Below are positions 3,864-46,100 of a stretch of DNA of 64,000 nucleotides, one piece after another. The position numbers and the translations under genes are program-made. The stretch covers positions 1,858,001 to 1,922,000 of the forward strand of contig NC_045148.1 in the NCBI RefSeq assembly GCF_008831285.2. The letters are read 5' to 3'. The stretch's first letter is position 1. Each line of letters opens with the position of its first letter. The notes below the pieces were generated by a model. The model was not told where the DNA came from, searched no databases, and saw only the letters and a list, made by a program, of their open reading frames with translations. This DNA is from Nymphaea colorata. Its lineage: Eukaryota; Streptophyta; Magnoliopsida; Nymphaeales; Nymphaeaceae.

Positions 3864-6719
3864 ATGAAGGGATCAGGAGGTCTTCCTCTGCAGGAGAGGG
3901 TAGAGCACCCCAACACAGTGGAGAGGCTCTTTCTCTGCATCCTCTCAGTTCTCATCCTGTGCTTGCTCCTCTACCGGCTGGCCGTCTTGCCGGAGCTGCC
4001 TGGCGGCGTGGCCTTCGGTGTGTGGCTGGCGGCCTTTCTTTGCGAGTGCTGGTTCGCCTTCATGTGGGTGTTGTCCTTCAACTGCAAGTGGCACTTCATT
4101 GAGCACAAGACCTTCCCCGATCGTCTCCTTCAGAGGTGAGATAAACCACGAATCTACAGAAACAGAGAGGGAGAGAGAGAGAGAGCATGAAATTCCTTGC
4201 AACTACGAAGTCACTTACTCCAAAAGCTCTGGAATTTGCAGGTTCAAATCATCTGAAGAGTTTCCTGCCATGGATGTGTTCGTCACCACAGCCGATCCGG
4301 TGATGGAGCCTCCCATCATCACCGTTAACACCGTACTCTCCATTCTCGCCGTTGACTACCCAGCTTCGAAGATCGCCTGCTATGTGTCGGATGATGGTTG
4401 CTCGCCCATCACCTTCTTCTCTCTAATAGAGGCCTCCAAGTTTGCTCACTCGTGGGTTCCCTTCTGCAAGAAGTATAGATTAGAGTGCAGGGCTCCCTTC
4501 AACTACTTCTCTCAGTCGCAAGCAGGCGACGCCCACAACCCATCCTCTACTTTCCATCAAGACTGGAAGGAGATGAAGGTAAGGACTTTTAAACGGATGG
4601 AATCGGCATAATAAAACACTGAGTATTAACTGATCAATTAGATTTCCTTCTGCGTATTTTATCTCATTACTCGATTGTGGTGTTTGAGATAATCGTGTCT
4701 AGTGTTGTTGTAGATCTTAATCGTATTTTTTTCTATATCCGATCTGTTCGAAAGGATTGAGCATATTCGTTTCAGAGCTGAGCTGCACACAATGAGTGGA
4801 GCAAAGTCGAGAATAAACTTGACTTCAATTCTAGTTCTACTCAATCTTAAATATAAACTCGAGTACGTTAACAATTGGAGTTTGAGTTAGTCGAATTCGA
4901 TTCCATTAAATTCAACTCCACTAGACTTTAATCTTATATTTTATTTTACGTTTTCAATTTTCCCTCCCTTTTTTTGTTTTTACGTTTTTTAATTTTCCCT
5001 CTGTTTTTTCCTCTCTTCACCACCACGCAGCCACGTTTAATTTTACGTTAATTTATTACACCTCACTTTCACATTTTTCTCTTTCCTCACCATTTTTTCC
5101 TCCCATTTTTATCTTTTATCACCGCGTCTTTTTACTTCCCAATGTCATTAATGAGCAGCAGCATTAATGAGCGCCTTTTTTTCTTCCATGGGTGCTGCGA
5201 CCCATCGAGGAGGGCAAGCAGTCTCGGAAAGTGCATGTGGAGTTCGAGTGGAGTTGACTAAACATAAGTCGAGTCAGTTTTTGATTCAGCTCGTGTGCAT
5301 CCCTAGTTCCACATCCCATATGTTGACATCTCCATAAACGGCCACATTCCTCCTGTGAATTTGTTTTGAGATTGTTTTCCCTAGGGAGCATATGAAGAGC
5401 TTGTTAAGAAGATAGCAGAGGTGGCCAAGAAATCAATTCCAGATAAATTTTCAGGAGAGGAATTTTCAGATTTTGCACGAGTCGAGAAGCGGAATCATCC
5501 TTCTATCGTTAAGGTACGCAACCCCAACATTTTTTGGGTGTAATGTATGGTTGAGATTGTACCCACTTTTACATCTCGAATCAAACAAGGGTGAGATTGT
5601 CCTGATGACATAGCCTTTTAATTTGTTGGTATGGAATCAGATTATAAACGAGCACACGGGAAGACAGGATGATCAAGTACCGCACTTGATTTATGTATCG
5701 AGAGAGAAACGACCTTCCCATGGACACCATTTTAAAGCGGGCGCCATGAACGTTCTGGTACTGGACAAACACGGCACCTGTCTCCCTGAACCCAGACGGC
5801 TCGGGCCAGACCCCAGCCGGTTTGCCGCAGATCCTTTTGTTTGACTTTGTTGACTTGGTTGGCATGTTCAGACTAGAGTGTCCGCTGTGATGACAAACGC
5901 ACCATTCATGCTGAACCTGGACTGCGACATGTTTGTGAACAACCCCAAGGTGATGCACAATGCCCTGTGCCTCTTGCTAGGGTTTGAGTCCGAGGCTCGA
6001 TGTGGATTCGTGCAGTTTCCGCAGACGTTCCATGGTGCGCTCAAGGATGATCCTTATGGAAACCAATACAAGGTGACGAACAAGGTGCGCCATTCTAAAG
6101 CCCCAAGTCTAAACCAATTGTATCAAGGTTGACCAACTTGGCGCCAGCCGCCGAACTAGGTTGGCATACTCCTTGGGGTTACTTTGAATGAAAATTGGAA
6201 CGACTATACCACAATTGAAACTCAGAATTGTGATTTGCTTAATAAACTCTAAAGAACCTCTTTTTTTTTTTTATTACACAAAAAGTTTACTTGTGTTTGG
6301 GGGTTGAATGCAGCATCTCATGCCGGGGACCAACAGGCTGTTTCCATAGAAGAAAAGTCATTTACGGTCAGCAACCACCAGATCGTCAAGAAGCAAAAAA
6401 TGGATTCTACAACTACAAATTAGCTAATGGTGCTGCCTATTACTTTATTTTTATGCAATGTATCATGATTTAGGCTGACGTTGCCTTTCAGCATCCCCCT
6501 TCCAACCACACACAAACACATGTGTTGCAACATAGGATGGTTAAAACTTAAAAAATTTATGGCTGAAAAGACCATATATCATTGTTAAAGCCATTATAAA
6601 CCATGGCTGCTCACATACCATGGCAACCAAAGAATTAGTAATAGCTTTTTTTTTTAACAGTAAATTTCTAACTTTTAATCATATGACAACAATTTGGTAC
6701 GTGGCAGCATCATCTTTCA

Positions 6720-6750
<31 letters not shown>

Positions 6751-9157
6751 TTGGAAGTTAGCTTTCGAGGGACGCAGTATTTGTTGAAAAACACGTAATA
6801 TTGGAAATGCAGGGCGCGAAAATGGGAGGTGTGGCATGGAAGAAGCATTGGCAACCATATTTGGATGCAACCAGCCCTTAATTGAATCAGCACTTCGAGC
6901 AGCCTCTGGAGGCAGCGCCCTCGTCGACCCTCCTCCCTCACAGACCCTCTCAAGTTCTTTGGAGGCAGCCATTGCTGTGTCTGCTTGTGATTATGAAGAC
7001 AACACCCTATGGGGCAAACAGGTTCTCTCTCTCAAACAATTGACTAAATGGCATTTTGCGATTAGATGTTGTAGAGCTGAACTTGCAGTGTGTCGGATTG
7101 TAAATTATCTTCTCATTAATCTTTCTCAATGGCTTGCAGTGCTTTCATTTCCCTTTTCTCCAAACATGAATTTTATTCAAACCGTGTTGCGCCGTAAAGT
7201 AAGAATAGAAAATCATGGTGACATTGTTTGGTAAACAAACATACTTCATAAAAGGGCTTAACTGGTGGTTTATAACAAATTCACGAAACATTCACAAAGT
7301 AATCCATCTGTCAAACGACCCCTAAGAGCTCTTCCAGAGTTCTTGGGCTTTCATGTTTATTTTGCTTAACACACTATCTCAAAGGCTGAGTTTGTTTCAG
7401 ATTGGTTGGGATTATGGATCAACAGTAGAGGACGTCATGACAGGGCTTAGGATCCACTCCTCAGGCTGGAACTCAATCGCAAGTTTACCTGAGCCACCAG
7501 CATTTCTTGGTGCGGCGCCGTCCACCGGACCCGACACGATGGTCCAGCAGAAGAGATGGGCCACCGGTTTGCTTGAAGCTCTCATCAGCCGGCGGAACCC
7601 GGTGAAGGCTACCATTAGGGGGAAGCTGCAACTACGACAGTGCATGGTCTATCTTATTTTGTTGTTGTGGGCAGTTCGATCCGTACCCGAATTTTGCTAT
7701 GCCATTCTGCCTGCATTATGCATATTCACAAACACCTCCATCTTCCCAAAGGTATCATCTCTCTTTTCCCTTCATATTCAAGTAGTCGTCTGATCAGGTC
7801 TTCTAAGGTACTAGTTTCAGATTTCGGTTAAGAGTCCCTCTGGTCTTAGATCATCAGATCCAGAGCACAAGGGATTGAGTTTGACTCATTAATGCAAGAG
7901 CAATGTTCGAAATCAAGTCCTTAGGAAAATTTTCAGCAGAGGGGAAATCTTATAACAAGGAAAGTAAAAGTTTAGGTGCAAAACATTGTGAAAGTATCAT
8001 GACATATGAATAGGTGTAAAAAATATAAAGATTTATAACAAAGAAGGAAACAGGATGAGCTATATGAATGTGAAAATGTTTGAAACAAACTGGATCCAAT
8101 AGGCAGATCCGGGCTTGGATACAAGCTTGTCTCGATGACTCAATATGTCATTCCCTATTCGTATTCTCAAACAACTAGATGGACATGGTTCAGTTCCTCC
8201 AAAGTCCTTGATTGGCTCAGATTTGAATACCATGGAAAGATCCAAATATAAATCGGAATCTACACTACATCTGATGTCAAAGGTCGAACCAAGATCCTAA
8301 AAGTGTATGCCCCAACACTAGATCCAATAAAAAGGAGCACTCTGTTTGTTATAGAAATTTGGATTGTATATTAACAAACCAACATGTAGGTTCAAATCCT
8401 AACCAAGTTCCTATACTAATAAACCAAAATGTGGGTTCAAATCCTAACCAAGTTCAAGATCATTGACATCAAGGAAATTCAGATATGATTTAAATGAAGA
8501 TGTGCGCAGTACTTTGTCAAACAAAAACTCGGCATTGGCATGAATTCTGACAGGTTATCTTATTTGCTCTGTTTGCACACAGACTGTACAATTAAGTTTT
8601 GGTGGCATCTTCTTTTCTTGCAGATAACTGATCCAGAATTCAAACTACCAGCTGCAGTTTTCATAATCTTCAATATCTACACACTCGTGGAATACCTTCT
8701 TTGTGGTCTATCATTGCGAGAATGGTGGAACAATCAGAGAATGGCCAAGATTGTGAGTTCAACTGCCTGGTTGTTTGGTCTCCTAGCTGTGTTGCTAAAG
8801 GTTTTTGGGGTCTCACAGACGGTCTTCGAGCTCACTCGCAAAGATGATTTGGAAGGTGCCTCGCCTGAGGCAGGAAAGTTCATTTTCGACTCGTCGGCCA
8901 TTTACGTGCCTGCAACTACGCTGCTCTTTGTGAACTTGGCTGCTCTGGCTCTAGGCCTAGCCAAGGTGGTCATGGACATGGAAGCTACTGCTAATGTGGG
9001 AGAGTTGGTGTGTTGTGCTTGGGTAGTTCTGAGCTTCCTGCCCTTCGTAAAGGGAATCTTTAGACGTGGGCAGCATGGTATTCCTTGGCCAACGATTTGC
9101 AAGTCCGGCACGGCCACTTTGATCTTCGTCTGCTTATGCAGGTGGTTCTCAAATTAA
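3864..9157 (+). pseudogene. cellulose synthase-like H (CslH) copy 1, nine exons, frameshifted in exon 6
   Basis: Exons by splice sites and homology: 3864-4135, 4242-4578, 5385-5513, 5641-5757, 5872-6084, 6314-6429, 6813-7021, 7401-7751, 8624-9157. All introns are GT-AG. The exons encode a GT2 glycan synthase of the CslB/CslH clade. There is an N-terminal pair of membrane helices, [11 protein letters not shown] (first Asp), LNLDCDMF (DCD), [10 protein letters not shown] (ED), QQKRW (QxxRW) and a C-terminal membrane bundle. Short stretches such as [11 protein letters not shown] and KDDPYGNQ match rice CslH best. Exon 6 is 116 nt instead of the 145 nt of copies 3, 4 and 5: 29 nt are missing within the [10 protein letters not shown] segment. 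The frame then hits TAG 12 codons into the exon. Skipping exon 6 would not restore the frame. Every other exon is open, so the inactivation looks recent. The exon structure is certain; loss of function is inferred. Confidence 0.88.
6719..6745. repeat. (AT)n microsatellite in intron 6 of CslH copy 1
   Basis: About 27 bp of alternating TA just upstream of exon 7. The same site in copies 3, 4 and 5 carries (AT)n of very different lengths (about 84, 16 and 47 bp), so this is one orthologous, fast-changing microsatellite. Confidence 0.9.
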
Positions 9158-10310: not shown

Positions 10311-10667
10311 AGGAGGGTGTTTCTCTCCATCCTCTCGGTTCTCATCCTGTGATTGCTCCTCTACCGGCTGGTCATCCTTTTGGAGCTGCCTGGCGGTGCC
10401 GCCTTCGGCTTGTGGCTGACGGACTTTCTGTGCGAGTGCTAGTTTGCCTTTATGTGGGTGCTGTCCCTCAACTACAAGTTTGTCGAGAACATGACCTTTC
10501 CCCGACCGTCTCTTTCAGAGGTGAGATAAACCACGAATCTACAGAAACAGAGGGAGAGAGAGAGAACCGTGCCATGCAACTACGAAATCAGTTACTCCAA
10601 AAACTCTGGAATTTGCAGGTTGAAATATATGAAGAGTTCCCTCCCATGGAGGTGTTCGTCACCACAT
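10311..10667 (+). pseudogene. CslH copy 2, 5' remnant (exon 1 and start of exon 2)
   Basis: The sequence starts within the first membrane helix of exon 1 (GTGTTTCTCTCCATCCTCTC) and lacks the ATG. Two nonsense changes are visible against the sister copies: TGC to TGA in the LILCLL segment and TGG to TAG in the ECWFAF segment. A short deletion removes the KWHF residues. The exon 1 donor (CAGAG/GTGAGA) and intron 1 are kept. Exon 2 begins after TTGCAG and stops matching right after GTGTTCGTCACCACA (about 10667), before the catalytic region. Clearly non-functional. Confidence 0.85.
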
Positions 10668-10706
10668 GTAGCCTTTCATATGGTTGACTAGTTGGTGCCA
10701 AAAAGA

Positions 10707-11065
10707 TGTTGAAAATGTTGGTTGCCGTTTTTATCTCCCATCCGTTGAATCATTAACGTGTTGAATCATTAACGTTTAGAGGAACGTTGGACGAGCGTTG
10801 GAGAATGATCTCCTTTGGAAATTCCTATACTGCCATGATGACCTTCCTTAATGCTAATGTTGTCTTGTAAAGAGCCTTTGCTCTGCTAGTTCCCCTTTTT
10901 TGTTCCTTAATGGGATTGGAACATTATATTATGTATTGTTTTCTATCCATAACACAATGAAGAAAATCACACGAGGGGTGTGAAGCTGTTTCTCGTGGTC
11001 GTAGGTTTGATTGACCGAACCACGTAAAATTGTGTTCTCTTTTATTATTTGATTTATTTTCTACA
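10707..11065 (+). repeat. 5' LTR of the copia element
   Basis: 359 bp, TG...CA ends, followed directly by the primer-binding site. It contains a short tandem duplication of GTTGAATCATTAACG that the 3' LTR lacks, which accounts for the length difference between the two. Confidence 0.92.
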
Positions 11066-11077
11066 TGGTATCAGAGC
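11066..11077 (+). other. primer-binding site (initiator tRNA-Met type)
   Basis: TGGTATCAGAGC, the common plant copia primer-binding site, directly after the 5' LTR. Confidence 0.9.
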
Positions 11078-11103
11078 TAGGTTCTCTAAGTTTGTGTTTC
11101 TCC

Positions 11104-14100
11104 ATGGCTGCAACAAACGTGGCATCTGATTTTTCGGTTGAACGAATACTCGTTCAAGAACAAGTACCAAGTTCAAAAATCACCTCTATTTTGTTAGATG
11201 GAATAAATTATCACTCTTGGTCGAAATCTGTTTCCTTATATCTTAGTGATAGATCAAAACTCAGATATGTTGATGCGGAAATTACTAAACCAGAAATTCA
11301 TGATGCTAAGTATAAGGAATGAAAATCGGTCAATGATATGGTTATGTCGTGGCTCTTCAATTTCACGGAATAAAAAATTGTTGAAAATTTTATGCTTGCT
11401 ACTACTGCCCTTGACATATGAATTAATGCTCAAGAAATGTTTGTTGAACAAAATAATGTGGCTCGGATGTATCAATTGTCTTGCTTAATTCATAGTCTAA
11501 AGAAAGATGATCTTTGCATTGCTTATTACTATGGTAAAATGAGACGTCTATGAGATGAATATGACCTATGTACCATGACTTACTCGGAGAATGCTCCATC
11601 AAAAAAGCTTAGAGAACATGAAAAAACCTTTCAACTTCTTCCTGGTCTTGGAAATGACTTTGAGCATCTCCTAAGTCAAATTCTTCTCTCGTTGGAATTA
11701 CCCTCAGTCAACAATATCTTATCTATGCTTATGAGAGAGACGTGTCATGAACTCAGATCAACACAAGCCACAAGCTATTCCATCAGTTGGTGGTTTAGAT
11801 AAGGCAACATATACTACTACCAATACTACTGCCTTTGCTGCCACCATGGGAAAGAAAGACAACAACAGTTTCCTTGGAAATAAACCAAGAAACCAAAATC
11901 GCAGCAAGTTCACCTGTACTTATTGTAAGAAGGACGGACATACCGGTGAGAGGTGCTGGATTTTGCACGGGAAGCCAGACCAACCTTTGATTCGTCGATC
12001 AAATGAACCTACTGCAACAACCCATTCCGCTGCTATAGAAAATGTTGACATGGTTGCTCGGTTGAAAATTATTACAGAACTTCTACAAAATGTCTGCAAA
12101 CAAAAGGAAACAATTGCTATGGTGGCCTATGCAACAAGTGCAAATACTTCAGGTATGTTTTCTACTCACTTTCATTGGGTTATTAACTCTGGAGCAAGTG
12201 AAAATGTGCATCTCAGTTATAGATCAATCAAATATTAAACGTGCACATGGAAATGACTATGTGATTATTGCAGATGGATCAAAGGTAAAAGTAGAGGGTA
12301 TTAGTAATGTTCATCTTCTTGATTGTGAACAAAATATTAATGCTCTAGTTGTTCCTAGTCTATCTACAAATTTATTATCCATTTCTAGGCTCACTAGGGA
12401 ATTGAACTGTGATGTTATATTCTCACCTCATGATGTGGGTTTTCAGGACAGATTGTCGAAGAAGATGATTGGTAAAAGAAGATTAGCTAAATGTTTATAT
12501 GTATTGGAACAAGAAAACAAAGCCATGGTTGCTAGACTTGATAGCTCATTGTGGCACAAAAGGTTAGGCCACCCCTCTAGCTATAAACTGAATTGTTTAT
12601 TTCCTACATATTATTATGATTGTCAAACATGTGATGTGTGTCGCTATGCTAAAATGAGTAGACTTCCCTTTCCAAAGTCTGATACTAATACTGAAAATTC
12701 CTTTGATTTGGTTCATTCTGACGTGTGGGGTCCGGCCCCTGTGGTCTCATATTCTGGTTTTCGGTATTATGTCACATTTATAGACGATTTCTCAAAGGTT
12801 ACATAGATTTATTTGCTTAAATCTAAAGTTGAAGTTTTCGATAAATTTCAAATGTTTTATAATATGGTGAAAAATCAATATGGAAAACAAATCAAAGTAT
12901 TAAGGACTGATAATGGTACTGAATACAAAATTTTTAAATTTGATCTTTTTGAAAAACAATGTGGCATTGATCATCAATTCACTTGTGTGGGCACTCCTTA
13001 ACAAAATGGAGTCGCCGAAAGGGAAAATCGGCATCTTCTTGAAGTTGCTCGTGCTTTATTATTTCAAATGAATGTCCCTAAGATTTATTGGAGTGATGCC
13101 ATCATGAATGCTTGTTATATTACTAACAGATTACCTAGCAAAAATCTTCAGGATCATGCGCCCCTTGAAATTTTGAAGGGACATAAGCTCAATTTAAACC
13201 ACATGCGAACCTTTGGATGTATTGCTTTTGTTTCTAGGCAGTGACAAAACATAGATAAACTTAGTAGTGGTGCTCTTAAATGTATTTTTCGAGGGTATTC
13301 TATATCACAAAAAGGATACCGATGTTATTGTATAAAAGAAAAATGACTTTTTTATGTCGAGAGATGTTGTGTTTGATGAAAACACACCTTACTTTCATCA
13401 CCCAATACCAGAAAATCGTATTATGAAAGAAAATTTTCCTCCTACATCTAACGTTCTTGATGAGACTTGCCTTCAGGGGGAGATCGTGCTACCAACTATG
13501 GATCCTTACAATGAGTTTACAGTCATAAGAAGAAACCAAAATTCACGAGAAGGATTTCAAGAGGCCAATACTGAAATTGCAGCTCCAGACCATCAGAACG
13601 ATACCCAAACCACTATAGTGGCTGCCAGTGAAAATGACACCCAAATCACTATGAGAAGATCAGAGCAACAAGTCAAGCCACCTACTCCGTTATCAGATTA
13701 CATCACTTATACTTCTACAAGCTATCCTATCGAACATTATATTGAATACGAGAAGATTAACCACATGTATAGAGCATATATATCAAGAGTCTCTAATTGT
13801 TTAGAGCCAACTACATATGAAGAAGCCAAAAGAGACTCGATGTGGTTAAAAGCCATGGATGAAGAACTTAGTGCCTTACATCAAAACAAAACTTGAGATA
13901 TTGTTACGCTACCTCCAGGAAAAAAGGCTGTTGGGTGTCGTTGGGTGTTTAAAATAAAATACAAAAGCGATGAAAGTATTGAAAGATACAAGGCCAGACT
14001 TGTCGTAAAAGGGTATACACAGACTCAAGGCTTAGATTATGAAGAGACCTTTGCGCCTATAGCAAAAATGGATACAATAAGGGTGATATTATCAGTTGCA

Positions 14101-15247
14101 TGCAATTATAATTGGCCCTTATATCAACTTGATGTTAAAAACGCTTTTCTGCAAGGAGATTTGAAAGAAGAAGTGTACATGAATCTTTCTCCTGGACATC
14201 CTCAAGAAGCTAAGAAAAAATTGGTGTGCAAGCTTTACAATGCAATCTATGGCTTGAAACAATCTCCAAGGGCATGGCACTATCGGTTGAGTAATTTCTT
14301 AGAAGAACATGGTTTCGTAAGAAACAATGCTGACAACTCTTTATTTATCAAATGAAAGGATGGTAATCTGGTTATCGTACTAGTATATGTAGATGACATT
14401 ATCGTGACAAGGACTGATGAAGAAAAGATCTTGAGAACTAAAGAACTGCTTCGCAATGTTTTTGACATAAAGGATCTGAGAAAGCTTCGTTATTTTTTAG
14501 GCATTGAAATTGCTCACTCAAGCAAGGGTCTATTGCTCTCTCAAAGAAGATATACCTTAGACTTGCTTAAAGAAGTCGGAAAAATTGGGTGCAAGCCAGT
14601 ACAGACCCCAATTGAAGTTGGACAAAAAGTTGAAATTACTCAAGATGATCCAGTCTGTAACAAGGAAGGCTACCAACAAATAGTAGAAAAACTTATATAC
14701 TTGACTATTACTAGACCGGACATAACCTATGCAGTCTGTGTTGCTAGCCAGTGTATGCATGCACCCACAGAACATCATTGGAAAATTGTTCATCGCATTC
14801 TGCAATACTCAACAGGAACTCCAGGACAAGGCATATGGTATAAAAGGAATGGTCATCATCAAATTCAAGGATTCACTGATGCTGATTGGGCAGGGAATTC
14901 AGACAGAAAATCTACAATTGGCTACTGTGTGTTTGTTGGAGGAAATATTGTGTCTTGGAAAAGAAAAAAACAGAGTGTTGTGTCCAGATCTTTCTATGCC
15001 TTTGCACTGTGATAATCAGGCCGCTATTCATATTTCAGCAAATTCAGTTTTTCATGAAAGAACCAAACATGTAGAAATAGATTGTCACTATGTTCGTGAG
15101 AAAGTACAAAAATGCGAAATATCTACCCCCTACATCAGAAGTTCAGAACAGTTGGCCGACAGGCTCACTAAGGGCTTGACTCGAGAGTTACATCAGAAAA
15201 TATTGAGCAGGTGGGGATGTATAAATATCTACACCCCACTTGAGGGG
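11104..15247 (+). pseudogene. copia gag-pol polyprotein, multiply broken
   Basis: Starts at the ATG at 11104. Gag is followed by a CCHC knuckle at 11915-11956 (CTYCKKDGHTGERC). The protease reads WVINSGAS at about 12176, with Asn where the catalytic Asp should be. Next come the integrase HKRLGHPS zinc-binding start (about 12552), HSDVWGP and LRTDNGTEY, then NGVAERENRH after an in-frame TAA near 12998. Reverse transcriptase follows (RWVFKIKYKSD, QLDVKNAFLQGDL, YGLKQSPRAW, LVYVDDIIVT), and then RNase H ([26 protein letters not shown]). Stops at 11322, 11553, 12804, 13894 and 14355 and a frameshift near 12215 break it. A deletion near 15000 removes the middle of RNase H, joining SRSFYAFAL to [10 protein letters not shown]. 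Not able to move on its own. Confidence 0.9.
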
Positions 15248-15250
15248 GAG

Positions 15251-15595
15251 TGTTGAAAATGATGGTTGCCGTTTTTATCTCCCACCCGTTGAATCATTAA
15301 CGTTGAGAGGAACGTTGGACAAGCGTTGGAGAATGATCTCCTTTGGAAATTCCTATACTGCCATGAAGACCTACCTTAATGCTAATGTTGCCTTGTTAAG
15401 AGCCTTTGCTATGCTCGTTCCCCTTTTTTGTTCCTTAATGGGATTAGAACATTATATTATGTATAATTTTCTATGCACAACACAATGAAGAAAATCACAC
15501 GAGGGGTGTGAAGCTGTTTGTCGTGGACCTATGTTTGATTGACCGAACCACGTAAAATTGTGTCCTTTTTTTTATTATTTGATTTATTTTCTACA
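15251..15595 (+). repeat. 3' LTR of the copia element
   Basis: 345 bp, starts TGTTGAAAATGATGG after the polypurine tract and ends TTTTCTACA, aligned along its whole length with the 5' LTR. Confidence 0.92.
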
Positions 15596-16983: not shown

Positions 16984-17505
16984 ATTGTAAAGCCTCAAGT
17001 TTAAATCAATTGTGTCAAGTATGACGAAAATAACACCATGAGTAGACACTTTGAGTAGCCGATCTAAGTCTAGTGAGGACATCACATGTGATTGAAGCTA
17101 GGTCTAATTGCATTGAAATGGGACGCTTGAAGGAGTGGTGCCGGCCAATTTATTACACGATTGTGGGTGGACCTCAGTCTAGTTATATATGACGGTTACA
17201 TGTACCTACCTATAATTAAAATGCTCCCCACAATGATCAGGAAAAAGGCATTGGTTGCGGCACCTACGAGGACAAGTCTCTTTCTTTATTTCACTTCAAA
17301 ATGTTAGGTCTCACACTGTTTTAGTAATTATAAAATAGACCTGTGTTGTTACGGTTTGAATCGGCTCAAATTACTAAAAGTTATTTAACTAAAAATATAA
17401 AAATATAAAGCTAATTACAAATAAAAGACTCAAATATCTAAAAAGTTTACATATACAGAAAGACAGAGAAAGGGGAAGAGGAAGGGGAGGAAAGGGAGGG
17501 AGACG
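16984..17505 (+). promoter_or_regulatory. upstream region of CslH copy 3, with a shortened proximal promoter
   Basis: Homologous to the flank of copy 5 down to the CAAATATCTAAAAA block. About 355 bp present in copy 5 (roughly 40462-40815) are then missing, and the match resumes at GTTTACATATACAG. At the TATA position copy 3 reads TACATATA (17448-17455), where copies 4 and 5 read TATATATA. A purine-rich leader runs to the ATG at 17506. Confidence 0.6.
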
Positions 17506-20498: not shown

Positions 20499-20591
<93 letters not shown>

Positions 20592-33980: not shown

Positions 33981-34956
33981 CTCTGAAAAGGACGTTAACC
34001 CTGCAGTTGGTGTTTTCATCTTAATCAACACTTTACACGCAAGAATGTTTGACATGCAAAGAATATATGAACCAGTAAATAATCTTCAAAATTCAGCCAC
34101 ATTGAAATGAATAATATAAAAATTATGGAAGATATCCTGGTTCAGAATAATTAAACAGATCAACCTGAAGCAAAGGGAAACTACGAGAGCTCATGCATCA
34201 CCATGTTGCTATCGAATTTTGAACTGCCAAAGCACCGCCCAATTGCATAACAATGGATCTTAGAGAAACAAAAAATAAGGTCAAATTCAAATACCTGAAG
34301 AGAGACAGAAAAAGAAAGATTACATGCTCGTGTCAAAAGGATTGAACAATATCAAGATTGAAGCATAGTCATGCTTTTAGGAAATAGTTAGAGGCAACGG
34401 CAAGTGATTTAAACTTGTGAGCTTGATCTCCATGTGCGATTGGGTCATCCTCATTGGCTTAATTTGAACGACTTGATGCTCTTATTATGCATATGGATTG
34501 AACACAAAATCAAAAACAGTTCAAGCATCCAATCAGAAAACGAAAACAAAAGAAAAAGAAAAAAAGAAAACAACCAATGCCACAGACATAAAACCATGGA
34601 CAAAAATCTACGAATAAAAGTCCACGGGTGAAAATCCATGCGACAAAAATCACTTGCCCTAAAGTTTCTATCTGTGTGTGATAGGTTCAGACAAAAAAGT
34701 GTGGACCTCCTGTTTGATGAAACAGGCTACAATTGCAGGGATAAAAAGTTTAACCATTGGCAACAAAGTTTTAGGTTGTGAAGGTAAACGGTCTACGTGA
34801 TCACAAGAAGCAAATCATGAAATTTTTTAGGTTGTCCATGTAAACAGTCGACATGTCAGAAGAAACAAATCATGAAATGGATAAGAAGAGACACCACTAA
34901 TAGCAGCGTGATACATGAATCCAACTGTGCTTTATTAGACAAAGAATCTTCCTGAT
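33981..34956. other. remnant of the POP5 5'-UTR intron, copy A
   Basis: Aligns along its length with 48792-49780, which is intron between the non-coding first exon and the ATG exon of POP5 copy B. No coding signal on either strand; short frames here are chance. Confidence 0.6.
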
Positions 34957-35137
34957 CGATTAATAGTAAAAAAGAACTTTTTGTAGGGACAAAAAAATGA
35001 AAAAAATAAAGTTTCAGGATTTGATGAAGCTCAAACCGAATGATTTGATTTGTATCAGTCCGTTATGCATATCTTGAAAACCAAGATACCCTATGAGTGG
35101 CAAATTAGCTGTCTTTGTTTTTTTTATCCCGCTTATT

Positions 35138-35302
35138 TAGTTATCTCATACCTCTCTCACTATTTGTTATCTCATACTTCTGTCCTTATATCATTATCTT
35201 CTACCATTATCATTATCTCATACCACCCCCTGTTAATATCTCAGACGCTAAGAGTATGTGATAATGATTATGAGATAATGATAGAGGTATGAGATAATAA
35301 CA
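35138..35302. mobile_element. fold-back MITE-like element, unit B copy
   Basis: AGTTATCTCATACCTCT at the left mirrors AGAGGTATGAGATAATAAC at the right, with further palindromic TTATCTCATAC units inside. Same position relative to the copia RT fragment as in unit A. Confidence 0.65.
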
Positions 35303-35429
35303 AGGTTAAGAATGTTCTTTGTACACATGCAATGTTAGAACATTGAATTAAATATGCATATTGGTAGTAGGGTGCACCCTTGGCGTTTGTTCATTGTGTA
35401 TGATAGGTTATGGGATTCCAGGCCAGTCA

Positions 35430-35800
35430 AAATCACAACAGGCCCTTAGTTACCAATTGCTTGAATATGGTAGTAAAATTCCCTTGCTCGGTTTTGGAAC
35501 TTGCATAAACTGACTTACAAGAATTTGCACACAAAACATAATATCTGGGTGTGCCACATTCAACTTGATCAACTGTCCAACCAAACGACAGTACTTGGAG
35601 CTTGGAAGGATCCTTTAATGGTTTGCTATCATCCGAAGTGAGTTTCAACTTTTGATCTATGGGAAAATCCATAGGTTTCACTCCTAGTAATCTTGCATCA
35701 GTTCAAATATCGAGAGTAAACTCATTTTGGCCAAGAAATATTGCGGACGGTGCACAAGCAAACTCCCGCTTCTGCAACCTATAGCAAATACAATTGGAGA
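35430..35800 (-). mobile_element. copia reverse transcriptase fragment, unit B copy
   Basis: Reverse-strand reading includes KPMDFPIDQKLKLTSDDSK and VECGTPRYYVLCANSCKS, parallel to the unit A copy at 24130-24620 but with a further deletion removing most of the AYCDSDW end. Confidence 0.78.
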
Positions 35801-35988
35801 GACCAACCCCTCAACTGGCTTACTTTTCTTTGTAATCTGCCAGCACTTGAAGCAAATAAATACATATCTGTCAGCAAGTAGTACACAAGGAGGAGGATTA
35901 TGCGGCTTAGTTTGGAAATGACGCTTTGCTAAATGAGATCCTCTTTTTCTTGAAAAAGTTCAGCACAAACAAGAGAGATAGAGTTGTG

Positions 35989-38900
35989 TGCATACTCCTA
36001 CGCACACTGGTGGGAACCTCTAGACCCGGCTTGACAAATTCACGCCCGAGTGTAGACCCCAACTCCAGGATCACTCGTGGGAGCCAAGACTAACTAAAAA
36101 CAAATTATATTTACAAAGACTTATTAACAACCCTGGCTTAATAGTTCCCTAGGTCAAAGATACAAGTGTGTTTACCCTGACCCAAGACTTCAAACCTATT
36201 ACAATGCTAAGGGGATTAAGGCTGGTAGAAACGTGAGCGATACAATTTTAACTCTCACAACTCACTCATCATTCATTCCAAACCATTCATACAATCCCTA
36301 AGAATGGCCAAACCATGTCCTTTCCCTTTGGTGGTCTAGCTACTCGCAACCGTGTCCTTGGCAAGGTGACTTGGAGGGACTATCGACAGTAGCAAATGAC
36401 TAGAGTCTGACTTAGAAAGGAAAGTGCACCCAATTACCCACGTTCTATAGGGTGGTTAGAAGTTACCTTGCCGATGAGAGACCGGCTTAAACAGCAATAG
36501 GATCCGAGTGAAATCCAGTGGCAAAGCCACTCTCAGATATCGCAGCACGATGGTGAGGAGGCAGGAGCTCGGCCCACCTGGCCAAGGTTGCCTAGGCGCC
36601 TGCGTGGTTGATCTGCTGTTGTAGGCTATGAGTGCAGCAATAAGGCCGTGTGAAGTTGTCGCCTGCTGAACTGATAGCTCTGATTTGAACACAAACAGCC
36701 CTGGAGATGAACCTAATTAATGGACTCCAAGGGGTAAGGTCGTGCTCGGAACAAGGAGGTGAGCTCGGTATGGGTTAGATGGGTCCGGTCTAGGTAGATC
36801 TGGATAAGGTATGACTCAATGGCGATAGGGATTGGATGGTGCGGCTAGAGGGAGTGGGTTAGAGTAAATGCTAGTGAGTTAAACATAAGAGCGGTTAGGC
36901 TTAGGGGAATGCTAAGGGATGGCTTGTGTGATGTGAGGGAGTAAAGGCTAGAGGTTAATGACGAGGGGAATGGTAATTAGGAATGATATGGCAAAGGCTT
37001 AGAGTTATGACTCGGGTGAGAAGGGTGATTAAGGTATGAACGGTTGTGCGAAGGTGGGCAAGTGAAGGGTCATGCGAGAGGCAATAGGGAGTTAATGAAC
37101 TTAGGGCTTGGATAATGATGGAGTGGGGTGTTAACGATGGAGTGGTGCTAGGTGGCGAGCTATGAGGATGAAGACCCTTGAGTTCGTATGGGTTTAGGAA
37201 CGGTTACAAGGAGAGGAAGGGTCTAACGAGGGGAGGAAGGGACACTCTGGCAAGTGTTAGAGAATACTTACCTTGTGCGTGATGATGGAGGCGGAATTGA
37301 CGAGAGGAGGGAATTAAATGCCTTGTGCGCGCGGTTTGGAGGTGAATGGCCTTGAACGTTGGATGAGGGACAGGTGTCACAATGAAGGGCTGGAATTGAG
37401 GATGCTTGAGAGTTTTGTAACTCTCGCTTTAATGTGAATGAGAAGGAGCTCGAAGGGAGAGCGTCGAGGTGTAACACTCGTCGTTCACACTTCTTTCTTA
37501 ATGTGCTTAGGAGGTGGAATGACTACGGTGCCCTTGCTAATTAAAATTCAACTTACTACCAATTGATACTGACCAAGGGTAATATGGAAAGAAGCGGCAA
37601 ATGTTTGAAGTCCGTCGAGTTTCCGCCGGAAATAATGCAGCGTCCGGTTTGACGGCGTTCACGATTTGGATTCCGACCGACGCTCGTTCTCCACCGTGGG
37701 ATGTCAGATTCGCCTGAGATTTTGCAAGGATGTTGCTGAGATCTGGGCGATCCTAATTGAGCCAACGAGAGAGTGAAAACTGCATTGACCTTCCTCAAAA
37801 TTGATATTAAACTTTCGCTCAATTTGGAGTTTTATTCCTGTGTATGATATTACGCACGATTTGGGAAAGACGAGCAGGGAACAAATCTCCTTCCTCGACA
37901 GCAACTCAAGTACGATGCTGGATTGATTGGGACAAGTTTCAAAGAGGATTAACCGGTCACTTTCGCTGAAATCCTATTGGCCGTCTACCAACGGAATTCC
38001 GACGAGCTCTCTCGGTTTTTCACCATGAAAATCAGTCCTCTAAGAGCTAGCGTCGATCTTCCTTTGGGAAGAAGCTGGGAGATTACCTACCTCTTCTTTT
38101 GCAACCGGAGTCATGTGCTTGGATGCTAGCCAGCTACTAGGTGGCCTTCTCGCCCGAGGGTACTAGTCCAGCCTCTCGACTGGTCTTCTCCACCGGCGGT
38201 ACTAATCGCTTTCCACTAGTTTTCTCCAAGCCTTCCGGATTTCTTCTCCAGCCTCTAATTCCTTTCGTGGTTGAAGGAATTGCACTGTGAGAAGCTTGCA
38301 ATTCAGTTGGGGAATTTGAGCGTAGGATGAAGATGCTCAAGGAGCCGGTGGCCTCCGAAGACGTCTTCAAGTCTGTCGTTCTTCAACCAGAGCCATGGGT
38401 TGAAGCTTGATGATTCCTATCACCGCCGGCAAGGTCGGTGAGGAAGAGAGGAACTCCCACACGGGGAAGAAAAACAACGAACAAACAACATAAGGAAAAA
38501 AGACTTACAAAAGAGTTTAAGTACTTAAAATAAAACCAGCTCTAACACATGAACCAAGACACTTCCTGAAATGAAAATGACTCAACTTAAGCAAATGCAT
38601 AAAGGAAAATGAACCGAGACGGGACGTCTCGAAAGCTAGAACCCCTCGAACCTTGTGAGCTCGAGGTGGCGACTTGTCTGGGTGCCACCCAGACTCGGTA
38701 AGTATCGAGTTAGCCTTACCTATGAGGGCTTAGCCATATAATTTGTCTAAGTTAGCCTTAGACTAGCACGTTGGACCCGGTTGTAGGACTAGATTCTAGA
38801 TTCGAACTTGTTTCAGCCGGGTCTAGGTCTTGATCTGCCTTGAAGTTCTCGGCCCTCTGTCCATGTTTAGATGTTGATGCTCTGCCCGTACTTGGTCGCT

Positions 38901-39325
38901 TGGTGCTCCGCCCACTGCACCTACAACAAGTATTTTGTTAACCTCCCTAAGCTCTAATTCCTCTGCCACTACAATCGGTCTCCTAAAGCCTCGGGAGATA
39001 TTCTCTTTATGCTCCTTGCTGCTCACGCCTAACATCATCATCTTAGCGTGAGCTATACATGCTCGACCCTTCTTAGCCGAGTATGCTTTGGCCTTGCTGA
39101 CCACATTGGCGCTTCTCTCCTTCGGTTTACGCCCTTCATTGGCCGTGCGTTGGCCCGCTGTATCCTTTGTCTTTAGCCTCCCTTGCTCGACACTCAAATT
39201 TTGCACTGCCTCGCTGCGGCTTAAGCCCTTGTTACGAGCTGTTGGCCTGGCCTCGACGACTCTCTCGGCCACGGCCATCGTCCACTGAGATAGATTTAGG
39301 CTCGCATCACACACACAAGTATGCA
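35989..39325. mobile_element. 3.3-kb insertion of unknown class in unit B
   Basis: Absent from unit A, where GAGTTGTGTGAAGGAAAAA is continuous at 24796. The insert is richer in G+C than its surroundings and starts TGCATACT and ends AGTATGCA, a perfect 8-bp terminal inversion with TG...CA ends. No transposase, integrase or reverse transcriptase motif is visible. The longest frame (39326-38823, reverse, 167 codons) is basic and matches nothing I know. TG...CA ends and lack of coding fit a large solo LTR or a non-autonomous LTR element. Flanking pentamers (TTGTG, CCGTA) do not match, so no target duplication supports this. Confidence 0.6.
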
Positions 39326-39349
39326 CCGTAGGAAAAAAAGAAATGGGAT

Positions 39350-40060
39350 TGAGGTTTTTTTTAAAGTTATTATAAAGAGATGTACATTTTAGACTTTTAA
39401 CATTTTTATGATCTTTTTTTTCAATTAAAAAAAAGACTTAGAGATAAGTATTTAGGTCATTACACACCCTTGTTTTTGGGGAAAGGAGTATACACATGAC
39501 CACTTCACAAACAAAAGGGCCAACACATTATCATATGCCATAGGTTTCGCCGACTTTTAACTTTTTCATAATCCTCTTTTTAGCTTCTTAAAAAGTTTCT
39601 TTTTTACTTAAATATCGGTCTTCCTTTGGTCGTTAGATGTGCACATTTTTTTGTGCACAGGAACATACTTATAACCACTTTGGCAAACAGGAGGGCCGAC
39701 TTATATGATGCCATGAATTTTATTGACTTTTAACCTTTTCATAATTCTATTTTTATCCTCTTAAAAAGTTTCTTTTTTGCTTAGATATATGTATTTTCGT
39801 CATTACACACTCAGAGTACACAATTTTTTGTGCAAATGGGTGTACACAACCACTTTTGCAAACAAGAGGGCCGACTTATCATGATGCCATGGGTTCTATT
39901 GACTTTTAATGTTTTCATAATTTTATTTTTATTCTCTTGAAAAACTTCTTTTTTACTTAAATATAAGTATTTTGGTCATTATACACTTGTGTAGACAGGG
40001 GCCAACTTATAACCACTTTAACAATCCAAAGGGCCAACTTATTACCATGCCAATGGTCTT
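39350..40060. repeat. tandem array of about 175-bp units upstream of CslH copy 5
   Basis: Four units homologous to those at 24840-25720, recognised by TATTT(T)GGTCATTA blocks near 39443, 39611, 39785 and 39960. One unit fewer than in unit A. Confidence 0.83.
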
Positions 40061-40864
40061 ACCCCTCTCCACACGCCCAAACAATCTGTTTGAGCACTAG
40101 GAACTTGTTTATATGAAGGAGCATGGATGGGTGGAGTTCCAGATGTGGGTAGACCGGAGTCCAGGTAGTTATATGTATCTATTAATATGCTCCCCACAAT
40201 TGCAAGGAAAAAGGAAAAGCTCTTTGTAAAAGACTGACAAGATTTTTTTCTAAAGTTCTCAAAATACCATAGTCTCAACGCAACTCATTCTGTGTGGCTC
40301 TCGCGTGCGACTCGCAAGAGCTACGAGCACAAGTCTCTTTCTTGATTTCACTACAAACTGTTAGTTCTCACACTGTTTTAGTAGTTAAAATAGACCGGTG
40401 TTGTTACTGTCTCAAATTACTAAAAGTTATTTATTTAAAAATATGAATAAAAAAACCTAAATATCTAAAAAATGATTAATAAGAAACTGACACGTAGCAA
40501 CTTGCAATTGGGCATTGAACAGACTGGTGATAAGTCCTATGATTTAGGAGTGCAAATAATTGATTGTGATAGTAGTACCCAAGAAATTATAATGAAAAAT
40601 TTGCATATCATTAAAATCATGGAATTTTATGATCAAAGTGCTCATCTTTTAAAAAATTAAAATGATTAAACGAACAAGGTATTTTGTTTTTAAAATTAAG
40701 AAAATAAAACCTCAAATTTTGATTTCATTCTAATCTAAGGAGGAATTATGATTCTTTAGCTGGTTGAATCTGACAACCTGGCAAGTTCAACGTTCCCCTC
40801 AGGTCTCAGGTACATAGTTTATATATACAAGAGACAGAGAAAGGGGACGAGAGAGAGGGAGACG
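40061..40864 (+). promoter_or_regulatory. upstream region and core promoter of CslH copy 5
   Basis: The fullest version of the shared CslH upstream region. It carries the GTGGCTCTCGCG block, the ACCGGTGTTGTTAC block, a CACGTAGC element (ACGT core) at about 40491 and the TATA box 40820-40827 (TATATATA), followed by a purine-rich leader to the ATG at 40865. Confidence 0.6.
40820..40827 (+). promoter_or_regulatory. TATA box of CslH copy 5
   Basis: TATATATA 38 bp before the ATG, the same position as in copy 4. Confidence 0.6.
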
Positions 40865-43800
40865 ATGTCTGGGTCAGCTGGTCTTCCTCTCCAGGAGAGG
40901 GTAGAACACCCAAACACTGTGGAGAGGGTGTTTCTCTCCATCCTCTCAGCTCTCATCCTGTGCTTGCTCCTCTACCGGCTGGCCGTCCTGCCGGAGCTGC
41001 CTGGCGGTGCGGCCTTAGGAGTGTGGCTGGCTGCCTTTCTGTGTGAGTGCTGGTTCGCTTTTATGTGGGTGCTGTCCCTCAACTACAAGTGGCACTTCGT
41101 CGAGAACAGGACCTTTCCCGACCGTCTTTTTCAGAGGTGAGATAAACCACGAATCTACAGAAACAAACACACAGAGAGGGAGAGAGAAAACCATGAAAGT
41201 CCATGCAACTATGAAATCAGTTACTTCAAAAGGTCTGGAATTTGCAGGTTCAAATCATCTGAAGAGTTTCCTGCCATGGACGTGTTCGTCACCACAGCCG
41301 ATCCGGTGATGGAGCCTCCCATCATCACCGTCAACACCGTACTCTCCATTCTCGCCGTTGATTACCCAGCTTCGAAGATCGCCTGCTACGTGTCGGATGA
41401 TGGTTGCTCGCCCATCACCTTCTTCTCCCTACTAGAGGCCTCCAAATTTGCTCAATCGTGGGTTCCCTTCTGCAAGAAGTATGGAGTAGAGTACAGGGCT
41501 CCCTTCAAGTACTTCTCCTTGTCTCAAACTTACCACAATCCGTCCTCCACTTTCCATCAAGATTGGAAAGAGATGAAGGTAAAAATGTTTTGAGTTGATA
41601 AAATAGACAAAAACTGGTCCATTTTTTCCCTTTTTTCTGCATTTCATTTTTATTAAATTAAAAAAAAAAAGTGTTCAGCATGTGGTGCTTACCTGGTGAA
41701 AATGCCATGACCAGGCTAATAGCCAAAGCTTTTGCCTAACTCTTTGTCTTCTTATAAATAAAACCTGCTTTCTTCGGTGTCTTGCCATCTCACTATGTTT
41801 TGGGCAACACATGCCATGCAGCCTCGGGCTCGATCGTGAACTGATCGAACCATGTCCATCTTGATTTTGTCTTCTCTTGAGAGGAGATTGATATTAAATG
41901 GCCGGCACCACCCAAAGAAAGTGATTGAAGTTACCACTGTTGTTTTCAAAAACAGATGCAGGAATATTCGCTTGGGAACTGGACAAAGCCTGTTCACTCG
42001 CAATAAAATAGTTTTCCTTTTTCTCAAAATTTTATGTACACTTGTGTGGAGATACTGGAAACTTGTTCACAAGTTAGACAAAAATCAAGAGTTGTTCATA
42101 ATATTCAAGAGTGTCGTGTCAGTTTTCATTGTACTCGTTTTTAATATTTTTTTTAACGACATTACTTTCCCTGCAAGTAGAGAGCATACGAGGAGCTTGC
42201 TGAGAAGATATCGGAGACGGCTCACAAATCAATTCCAGATAAATTTTCGGGGGAAGAATTTTCAGATTTTGCACAAGTCCAGAAGCGGAATCATCCTGCT
42301 ATCGTGAAGGTACCTAGTCAAAGCTCTTTTGGCTGTAGTGAATGGGTGCAAGGGTGGAGCCAGATTTTTTTCCTTTTTTTTTAAGAGAAAAATAACAATT
42401 TATTAGAATAATATGTATAACTTTATCAAACACTGGTGAGATTGCCCGTGCCCAGGGTTTACATTGTTTCATGTCCTAATGAGATAGCTTCTTAATTTCT
42501 TGGTGTGAAATCAGATTATAAACGAGCACAAGGGAAGAGAAGATGATCAGGTGCCACACTTGATTTACTTATCCAGAGAGAAACGACCTTCACACGCACA
42601 CCACTTCAAAGCAGGAGCCATGAACGTTCTGGTATTGACCAAGGCCCATGTCTCCCTGAACCCAGACGGCTCAGCCGCCTCAAATCCTTTTGTTTGACTT
42701 CGTTGACTTGGTTGGTTTGTTCAGACAAGGGTTTCTGGAGTGATGACCAATGCACCGTTCATGCTAAACCTGGACTGTGACATGTTCGTGAACAACCCCA
42801 AGGCGCTGTACCATGCCCTGTGCCTCTTGCTGGGGTTTGAGTCCGAGGTGCAAAGTGGGTTCGTGCAGTTTCCACAGATGTTCCATGGTGCACTCAAGGA
42901 CGACCCATATGGGAACCAACTCAAGGTGTTGATCAAGGTGCGTCATTCTAAAGCCTCAAGTTTAAATCAACTGTGTCAAGTTTGACCGACTTGTAAGTGG
43001 TAGAGTAATTTGAGTCGCCGACTAGAGTCTGGTGTGAGCATTACATGTGATTGAAGCAAGGTCCAGCTGCATTTCAATGGGATGTTTGAAGGGCTGGTGT
43101 GGGCACCGACTCACACCAACCACACTGTAGCTCCGTTACTGAGTTGTGTCGAGTTGGACTGATCTGACTCACACCAACCACACTGTAGCTCCGTTACTGA
43201 ATTGTGTCGAGTTGGACTGATTAGGCTCGACCTTGCGAACCGTCTAAGGGCTCGCCTTGCCAAGAGTAGAATCATGTTTGATTCCTAGATATGGATCTGA
43301 ATCATCTCCAGTCAAACAGCAACTGGACGTTTAGTGAATATGGACCAGGGATCACAACTCGACGAACAACTAGTTGTTCTTCTGCCAGCCTCTTATTTTT
43401 CCTGGGACTTGTAACACCCTCGTTGTCGTCCCCCAATTGTGTTCAGTTCGTTTTTTGTTTTACTAAGTTTCACTTGTGAGTGCAGCACCTCATGCCAGGG
43501 AGCAATGCATGTCAAGGGCCCATGTATGGGGGCACCGGCTGCTTCCACCGAAGGAAAGCCATTTACGGTCAGCAACCCCTAGAGCGTCCACTCACCAAAA
43601 ATGGACCCTACAACTACAAATTAGCTAATGGTGCTGCCTATTCACTCTCTTCCTCATATAATGAGTATCTTAGTGCTATATATATATATACATTGACTAT
43701 GTAAAGTTACCCAGCCATCTAATTAGGGTTTTTCATCTGATGTACATAAATGGTTGACAGAAAAACATAGACAAAAAAGTGATAATTAATTCTAGATAAC

Positions 43801-43907
43801 GAAAATGTCAATCACATTTTTCTCATTATTTTTCTCTTGACAATCTTCATATTGGATCAGATGGTACTAGTTAGATGGCTGTATGATTCGAAATAGCTAG
43901 AGTTACC

Positions 43908-43959
<52 letters not shown>

Positions 43960-46100
43960 GTCCATAACTGTGCTATGAAATTTGAAACTTGGACGCATTA
44001 TTTGGTGAAAAGCACATGTATATTGGAAATGTAGGGAGCCAAAATGGGAGGTGTGGCATTGAAGAAGCATTGGCAGCCATATTTGGAGGCAACCAGCCCT
44101 TAATTGAATCAGCACTTAGAGCAGCCTCTGAAGGCAGAGCCGTCATCGACCCTTCTTCCTCACGGACCCTTTCAAGTTCTTTGGAAGCAGCCATTGCTGT
44201 CTCTGCTTGTGATTACGAAGACAACACCCTATGGGGCAAACAGGTTGTTTCTCTCTCCAACAATTGATATTATAGAGTTGTTCTTTAGTGAGTCGGATTA
44301 TAAGTTAATCTTCTGATTGATCTTTCTCAATGGCTTGTAGTGCTTTCATTGTCCCTTCCCTCGATAAACCAATGCAATTCAAAGCGTGTTCCATTGCAAA
44401 ATAACAATAGAAAACCATGTTTAGTTTTTGCCATCCACAGCATCTGCAAGCATTCACAAAAGGGCCTACAGGGCAAGGAATAGTTTTTCAAAAATTAAAA
44501 AATTGATTCATGTTTTTGGAAAAAAACTCTTACGCCCCCTTAAAATTAAGATCTCCCTGATTTTGCTTTTGGCATGTGTGGTTCATTCTGGGTTCATGCG
44601 CTTTAATGTGTTTTTGATTAATGCATCAATTCTAAATGACTAGTTTTTTTTTTTTTCAGGTTGGTTGGGATTATGGATCAACAGTAGAGGATGTCATGAC
44701 AGGGTGTAGGATCCACTCCTCAGGCTGGAACTCAGTCACATGTTTGCCTGATCCACCAGCATTTCTTGGTGCCGCACCGTCTACCGGACCCGACACCATG
44801 GTCCAGCAGAAAAGATGGGCCACCGGTTTGTTTGAAATTCTCCTCAGCCGGCGGAACCCCCTGAGGGCTACAGTGAGGGAGAAGCTGCAACTGAGACAAT
44901 GCATGGTTTATCTCAGTGTGTTGTTGTGGGCAGCCCGATCTGTACCCGAACTTTGCTACGCTATTCTGCCTGCATTATGCATATTCACAAACACTTCCAT
45001 CTTCCCTAAGGTATCAGCTCTCTTTCCCTTCTTATTCAAGTAGTCATGTGATCAGGTCTATTGAGGTACCAGTCAGGCTTTGGCTAGGAGTCTGTCTGGT
45101 TTTAGATCATCAGATCCAGGCCACAAGCTGTCTGATTTGTTTTATTGCATGAGCAGAGTACCAATTCAAGTCCTTGAGAAAATTTTAAGCAAAGGGGAGA
45201 TCTTATAACAAGGAAAGAAATCATTTATGTGCAAAACATTATAAAGAATTGTAAAAATTCCAAGGTTTATAAGAAAATGGGAAACATGAAGAGCTATATG
45301 AATGTGAAACTGTGAATAATCCATTGATGCTTAAAAGTGTCAAAACTTTTAAACTGATGATATGTTATTGGTGTGTTTATGTTTCTAATATATCACCAAA
45401 TTTGAATCCTTATTATTCAGATAGTTTGATGGATAAACCTAGTAACCGTCATCCATAAATTTAACTAAGTTTGGACTGGCCGACATGCACTTTGAGACAA
45501 CTAATTTCAATCAAGGTGGATCCAATAGGCAGAAGGCTAGTTATGGTAGCATCATCTGTCTTGCAGATAACTGATCCAGAATTCAGACTACCGGCTGCAG
45601 TTTTCTTCATCTTCAACATCTACATTCTCCTGGAATACCTTCTTTGTGGTCTATCAGTGCGAGAATGGTGGAACAATCAGAGAATGGCCAGGATTCTGAG
45701 TTCAACTGCCTGGTTGTTTGGTCTCCTAGCTGTATTACTCAAGGTTTTTGGGATCTCAGATACGGCATTCGAGCTCACTCGCAAAGATGATTTGGAAGGT
45801 GCACCGGCTGAGGCAGGGAAGTTCATTTTTGACTCGTCGGCAATTTATGTGCCCGCAACAACACTGCTCTTTGTGAACATGACAGCCCTGGCTCTGGGCC
45901 TAGCCAAGACGGTGATGGAAATGGAAGCTGCTGCTTATGTGGGGGAGTTGGTGTGTTGTGCTTGGGTGGTTATGAGCTTCCTGCCCTTCGTAAAAGGACT
46001 GTTTAGACGTGAGCAATATGGTATTCCTTGGCCAACAGTCTGCAAGTCCGGCACGGCCGCTTTGATCTTCGTATGCTTATGCAGGCAGTTCTCAAACTAA
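40865..46100 (+). CDS. cellulose synthase-like H (CslH) copy 5, intact, 766 aa in nine exons
   Basis: Exons 40865-41136, 41248-41578, 42181-42309, 42515-42631, 42725-42937, 43486-43630, 44035-44243, 44660-45010, 45567-46100; sum 2301 nt, GT-AG introns, no stop. All diagnostic motifs keep the family form apart from V for T before [13 protein letters not shown] (D141, D142), LNLDCDMF (D300, D302), [24 protein letters not shown] and QQKRWATG. Two N-terminal helices and a C-terminal membrane bundle ending [10 protein letters not shown] are present. With a full promoter, TATA box and clean motifs, this is the best candidate for a working enzyme in the array. Expected role is beta-glucan synthesis at the Golgi or plasma membrane, by analogy with grass CslH. 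Exons 1 and 8 match copy 3; exons 3 and 9 match copy 4. It is convergent with intact POP5 850 bp away. Confidence 0.94.
43108..43223. repeat. 58-bp direct duplication in intron 5 of CslH copy 5
   Basis: Two adjacent units beginning GACTCACACCAACCACACTG (43108 and 43166), almost identical. The sister intron of copy 4 has one unit. Confidence 0.85.
43702..43891. mobile_element. MITE-like element in intron 6 of CslH copy 5
   Basis: Related along its length to the element at 20598-20786 in the same intron of copy 3 (GTTACCCAGCCATCTAATTAG at the left, TTAGATGGCTGTATGATTC at the right). It lies between two (AT)n tracts. Copies 1 and 4 have no such element in intron 6. Confidence 0.65.
43910..43956. 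repeat. (AT)n microsatellite in intron 6 of CslH copy 5
   Basis: About 47 bp of alternating AT. A shorter tract lies on the other side of the MITE near 43677-43690. Confidence 0.92.

Follow-up and report, generated by a model that had tools for sequence, protein, structure and literature searches.

The window analysed here is a 64,000-nt stretch of Nymphaea colorata NC_045148.1 (positions 1,858,001-1,922,000, forward strand) and contains a tandem array of plant cellulose synthase-like (Csl) genes on the + strand. No single tree fits the four long copies of this array along the gene, and the way in which the copies pair changes between exons. We consider it highly probable that segmental duplication enlarged the array and that short ectopic conversions later overwrote parts of its genes. 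The copies, in window coordinates, are as follows.

3864..9157, + strand: copy 1, nine exons, frameshifted in exon 6 (exons 1-5 at 3864-4135, 4242-4578, 5385-5513, 5641-5757, 5872-6084; exons 6-9 at 6314-6429, 6813-7021, 7401-7751, 8624-9157; all + strand)
10313..17140, + strand: copy 2, a fragment in which exon 1 and the beginning of exon 2 are followed by a Copia element and then by pieces containing exons 3 and 5
17506..23005, + strand: copy 3, nine intact exons, 766 aa
26824..31687, + strand: copy 4, nine intact exons, 767 aa, its reading frame being one codon longer at the 3′ end than those of copies 3 and 5
40865..46100, + strand: copy 5, nine intact exons, 766 aa

Copies 1, 3, 4 and 5 share a structure of nine exons, and all 8 introns of these four copies are GT...AG introns at aligned places. 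A previous sequence-only reading had described an exon-by-exon mosaic over 3864..46100; these coordinates coincide with the first ATG and the last stop in the gene models of the four copies, and the peptide strings quoted in that reading are present in the copies named. The four copies were aligned with their introns, and each site was scored by the pair of copies that it joined, giving the patterns 1+4/3+5 (copy 1 with 4, copy 3 with 5), 1+3/4+5 and 1+5/3+4. All informative sites of exon 1 (12/12) and exon 8 (15/15) supported 1+4/3+5, as did 1 site in intron 1 and the final 2 in intron 7. The 5/5 sites of exon 5 and the 4 leading sites of intron 5 supported 1+5/3+4. The pattern 1+3/4+5 was found in exon 3 (4/4), in intron 5 past its leading sites, in exon 6 (5/5), intron 8 (26/32), exon 9 (17/17) and the 3′ flank (191/191), the last count being large because the flanks of copies 1/3 and 4/5 are not homologous to each other. 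Exons 2, 4 and 7, with 3, 1 and 4 informative sites, decide no topology. The pairings previously read from exons 1 and 8 (1 with 4, 3 with 5), from exon 5 (3 like 4) and from exon 9 with the 3′ flank (1 with 3, 4 with 5) were thus recovered, while the pairing of copies 4 and 5 claimed for exon 3 and intron 3 was borne out by the distances, exon 3 being free of synonymous differences, and not by the tree test. A switch that had been placed 100-150 bp into intron 8 had to be moved: it falls between copy-3 positions 21774 and 21918, an interval that covers the final 51 bp of exon 8 and the first 93 bp of intron 8.

The 1+4/3+5 signal of exon 1 directly adjoins 4-5 pairing upstream of the gene. 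The exon 8 tract is interstitial, with mixed signals in intron 7 before it and 1+3/4+5 in intron 8 after it, and the exon 5 tract precedes 1+3/4+5 in intron 5 and exon 6. In codons without a residue change, 10/10 switching sites of exons 1 and 8 showed 1+4/3+5, and 6/6 of exon 9 showed 1+3/4+5. Since silent sites switch too, protein convergence is not needed to account for the pattern.

The observed chi2 of exon by topology was 113.3 (p=5e-5 from 20,000 shuffles of topologies over exons), and pairwise homoplasy index (PHI)-type tests gave p=5e-5 on the exons and on the whole gene and p=0.0002-0.0055 on the introns alone. Simulations on a single tree (500 on each of 3 trees) reached the observed conflict in 0/1,500 cases; their maximum chi2 was 46.9 compared to the observed 113.3, and their second-commonest pattern counted at most 14 compared to 29. 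In the approximately unbiased (AU) test, both other trees were rejected in exon 1 (0.0005-0.0006), exon 8 (3e-6) and exon 9 (1e-5), the only exons that survive correction for nine AU tests, and intron 8 rejected the other trees at 0.002. Exons 5 and 6 rejected both other trees only at 0.04-0.045. Exons 2, 3, 4 and 7 did not reject at 0.05, and no tree was singled out by intron 2, intron 7 or the initial part of intron 5. A single tree fitting all windows, which the previous reading had named as the outcome that would speak against it, was therefore not found by shuffles, AU tests or simulations. Four-fold sites were compared in exon groups picked after the per-exon distances had been seen: copies 4 and 5 differ at 23/93 sites in exons 1 and 8 and at 25/238 in the other exons (Fisher p=0.0016), copies 1 and 3 at 19/51 in exons 4-6 and 9/119 in exons 7 and 9 (p=6e-6), and copies 1 and 4 at 20/47 in exons 4-6 and 12/93 in exons 1 and 8 (p=2e-4).

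Four tracts were delimited from the switching sites and distances.

26922..27183, + strand: exon 1 tract of copy 4, pairing with copy 1 (approximate; from copy-3 positions 17604-17867)
30150..30471, + strand: exon 8 tract of copy 4, pairing with copy 1 (from copy-3 positions 21463-21784)
19456..19811, + strand: exon 5 and the start of intron 5 of copy 3, pairing with copy 4 (5 exon and 4 intron sites)
22472..23205, + strand: exon 9 and the first 200 bp of the 3′ flank of copy 3, near copy 1 (8624-9357)

Copies 1 and 3 are separated by synonymous distances of 0.09 in exon 9 and 0.08 in exon 7, and of 0.59 in exon 5 and 0.77 in exon 4; their flanks differ by 2-4%, and their introns 8 and 2 lie at distances of 0.41 and 0.97. 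Introns 2 and 8 of copy 1 are at 0.4-1.0 from the other copies. A fixed rate per exon cannot explain these distances, because in exon 9 copies 3 and 5 (0.25) are farther apart than copies 1 and 3 (0.09). For exon 8, the distances of copy 4 to copies 3 and 5 (0.26 and 0.29) equal those of copy 1 to the same two copies (0.26 and 0.29), copies 1 and 4 are at 0.14, and the value for copies 3 and 5 (0.11) falls inside their range in introns 7 and 8 (0.08-0.17). Judged by these distances, copy 4 was most likely the recipient of an exon 8 from a copy-1-like donor; the 3′ end of this tract may reach about 93 bp into intron 8. Exon 1 of copy 4 probably came from a copy-1-like donor as well, although the agreement is less sharp than for exon 8. 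At the 13 switching sites covered by the exon 1/intron 1 piece of copy 2, this fragment has the state of copies 3 and 5 at 10, that of copies 1 and 4 at 1 and another state at 2, so that copy 4 is the one that stands apart.

At the 5 sites in exon 5, copy 2 goes with copies 1 and 5 at 3, with copies 3 and 4 at 1 and has another state at 1, so that the states of copies 3 and 4 look derived. Copies 3 and 4 share identical runs of 257 bp from 19225 (copy 4: 28407) and 147 bp from 19497 (copy 4: 28679). Copy 2 goes with copies 1 and 3 at 3/4 sites in exon 3, and exon 4 with introns 3 and 4 is almost identical among copies 3, 4 and 5.

Copies 4 and 5 are the product of a tandem segmental duplication of an 11-kb block, with the junction at 34957.

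23697..34956, + strand: duplication block i, in the order repeat fragment, tandem repeats, upstream region, gene 4, 3′ spacer
34958..49780, + strand: duplication block ii, gene 5 in the same arrangement, interrupted by an insert at about 35991-39335

The two blocks have the same order and abut at 34957, which identifies them as a tandem segmental duplication; the insert entered block ii afterwards. The divergence between them is uneven, being 0.11-0.18 in 7/9 upstream windows and 0.01-0.04 in 9/11 windows of the 3′ spacer, and a uniform age of the block is thereby ruled out. Within the genes, copies 4 and 5 have zero synonymous differences in exons 3 and 4 and are at 0.36 in exon 1 and 0.29 in exon 8. 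Conversion that followed the duplication would be expected to produce such unevenness, and later homogenisation of the spacer is likely. Over most of their length the 3′ spacers behind copies 4 and 5 are 96-99% identical (31685-33818 versus 46101-48230), most upstream parts of the block being far less alike. Pieces of a Pop5-like gene (RNase P/MRP subunit; Pfam Rpp14/Pop5) lie on the - strand in both spacers, at 46949-48896 behind copy 5 and at 32552-34085 behind copy 4; the Csl duplication therefore carried a second, unrelated gene along. The Pop5-like copy behind gene 4 looks broken, since about 400 bp are missing from it, among them a portion of the first matching piece. Coding constraint fails to explain the low spacer values, since the three Pop5-like pieces (29/642 positions differ) are no more alike than the remaining spacer (93/2585). 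The 3.3-kb insert at 35991-39335, missing from block i, has ends that share a short inverted GTGCATACT; an inverted repeat of at least 20 bp was not found in it, and its longest open reading frame had no Pfam match. Degenerate tandem repeats with a period of about 180 bp were observed upstream of copies 4 and 5 (24917-25739 and 39437-40052).

We propose that tandem duplication of the 11-kb block gave rise to copies 4 and 5 and that short ectopic conversions followed. A copy-1-like donor would have overwritten exon 8 of copy 4 and probably exon 1 as well, the exon 5 tract would have been transferred between copies 3 and 4, and exon 9 with the 3′ flank would have been homogenised between copies 1 and 3. 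The transfer would have run from copy 1 to copy 4, break repair may have been the route, and homology may have limited the tract. The switches fall near exon borders, presumably because pairing was confined to exon islands between the introns of copy 1, which have diverged. Conversion fits the exon 5 and exon 8 tracts, which switch and switch back within the gene, and it also fits exon 1, which departs from the 4-5 pairing immediately before it. The suggestion of the sequence-only reading, repeated gene conversion or unequal exchange, is hence supported, with conversion accounting for exons 1, 5 and 8 and tandem duplication for copies 4 and 5.

Several observations weigh against this explanation. 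Exons 5 and 6 are marginal by AU and were not significant in the Shimodaira-Hasegawa (SH) test (0.07-0.08). In a GENECONV-like run test on the exons, a check that had been suggested together with the mosaic, 2/6 pairs were significant, 3-4 (1e-4) and 4-5 (0.02); the pairs 1-4 (0.23), 1-3 (0.26), 1-5 and 3-5 were not. The non-significant runs for 1-4 and 1-3 could reflect older tracts with later substitutions. With introns included, 6/6 pairs fell below 0.02, but these values are inflated by the divergence of the copy 1 introns. When four-fold sites of exons 1 and 8 were compared to those of all other exons, neither the rise for copies 3 and 4 (p=0.09) nor the fall for copies 1 and 4 (p=0.06) was significant. 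Intron 2 (8, 11 and 6 sites) and intron 7 (4, 3 and 3) carry mixed short signals, and the distances in exon 1 are less clear than those in exon 8 (1-4 0.19, 3-5 0.19, 3-4 0.23, 1-3 0.25).

Unequal crossing over alone, in which reciprocal exchange between misaligned copies creates hybrid genes without any conversion, is an improbable account of the array as a whole. Copies 4 and 5 with their spacers are indeed a tandem duplication, copy 5 sides with copy 4 in its 3′ part and flank but is closer to copy 3 in exon 1 and in parts of intron 2, and crossing over is still a viable account of the 3′ ends in copies 1 and 3. However, exons 5 and 8 carry interstitial tracts with a switch of pairing on both sides, each of which would need two crossovers a few hundred bp apart, and the same partner is kept on both sides of the exon 8 tract. 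Still less probable is an assembly artefact with mis-phased paralogue segments in the contig, a possibility that the previous reading had raised as a mis-assembly of alleles. If copies 3 and 4 had been swapped in exons 1 and 8, 1+3/4+5 would likewise have become 1+4/3+5, but the longest identical run between these copies is 41 bp near exon 8 and 27 bp near exon 1, and that between copies 1 and 5 is 32 bp and 37 bp, respectively, so that no long bridge for a mis-join exists around these exons. The paired segments are at synonymous distances of 0.11-0.19 and are thus not duplicated reads or alleles. Mis-assembly is therefore unlikely for exons 1 and 8; the exon 5 tract, nearly identical between copies 3 and 4 over about 400 bp, is the least protected. 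A purely selective origin, in which convergent or diversifying selection shaped the protein types of exons 1 and 8 without DNA exchange, is scarcely credible: 17/27 switching sites there lie in codons with residue differences (8/12 in exon 1, 9/15 in exon 8), but the 10 silent ones all agree on 1+4/3+5 and dN between the two types (0.06-0.09) is well below dS (0.23-0.41), which rules selection out as the cause, and the exon 9 pattern continues into noncoding flank. GC-biased conversion left no signal, as the state of copies 1 and 4 is G/C at 14 of the 27 switching sites and that of copies 3 and 5 at 16.

Membership in the plant cellulose synthase superfamily was assessed with copy 3. All submitted pieces of this copy (4/4) matched the PF03552 (Cellulose_synt) profile above cut-off, and the spliced product (766 aa) matched plant CesA chains of solved structure with a best E of 2e-145 over residues 28-744 and CslF6 with an E of 5e-102. 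LDCD and QQKRW are found in copies 3-5, SDDG in copies 3 and 5, and SDDS in copy 4. The third-D motif, which aligns with CesA TED, reads VED in copies 3 and 5 and SED in copy 4, the D being kept. We take these to be the D, DxD, third D (TED) and QxxRW motifs of the cellulose synthase superfamily. The array presumably belongs to the CslB/CslH clade.

Exon 6 of copy 1 measures 116 bp compared to 145 bp in copies 3, 4 and 5, and the first stop occurs at residue 368; copy 1 is thus a probable pseudogene. Copy 2 has in-frame stops in exon 1, lacks most exons and is split by a retrotransposon. This Copia-type element, at 10707-15595, has gag-pre-integrase and RVT_2 matches and long terminal repeats at 10707-11065 and 15251-15595 that are 89% alike; most of exon 2 of copy 2 is missing there. 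A hAT transposase remnant with Dimer_Tnp_hAT and hAT RNase-H matches lies at 52748-53968 on the - strand.

It is conceivable, though rather unlikely, that the dying copy 1 acted as an exon reservoir from which exons 1 and 8, where homology persists, were transferred as cassettes to the live copy 4. Copy 4 would then be a chimeric synthase with different N-terminal and QxxRW-side segments, and diverged introns would shield the rest. The array is a clean natural case of exon-bounded conversion: a single 64-kb stretch shows the tract limits, a likely donor and the junction of the duplication. Whole coding sequences of tandem copies like these yield misleading trees, since with all exons together the AU test cannot choose between two trees (0.65 versus 0.35).

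Tandem clustering of Csl paralogues has been described before: CslB, CslE, CslG and CslM usually occur in tandem arrays of 2-4 genes (PMC9062648), and paralogues of CslB and CslH tend to lie in clusters, with similar gene structures (PMC3091534). The array resembles these clusters. By word search, "conversion" occurs 0 times in the former paper and once, in a reference title, in the latter. We found no report of gene conversion or concerted evolution in the cellulose synthase-like family in the open-licence literature; a CslF paper considered as a prior report concerns GC content. A survey of gene conversion in rice gives tracts with a mean of 130 nt (range, 4-1237), some of which involve pseudogenes (PMC2277409). 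The array likewise has short tracts within less similar sequence between similar paralogues, here a few hundred bp long and with a frameshifted copy 1. Unlike in the rice survey, which used cDNA alignments, exon-bounded tracts are visible here against diverged introns in one genomic array. Spider silk clusters also combine clustered paralogues, homogenised coding sequence and proposed intergenic conversion, and their coding units stay alike although the introns are highly divergent (PMC9779670); repetitive coding sequence, homogenisation within genes and a comparison between species belong to that system and not to ours. Ectopic conversion is well known, and the array is a clear new example of it, ordinary in kind.

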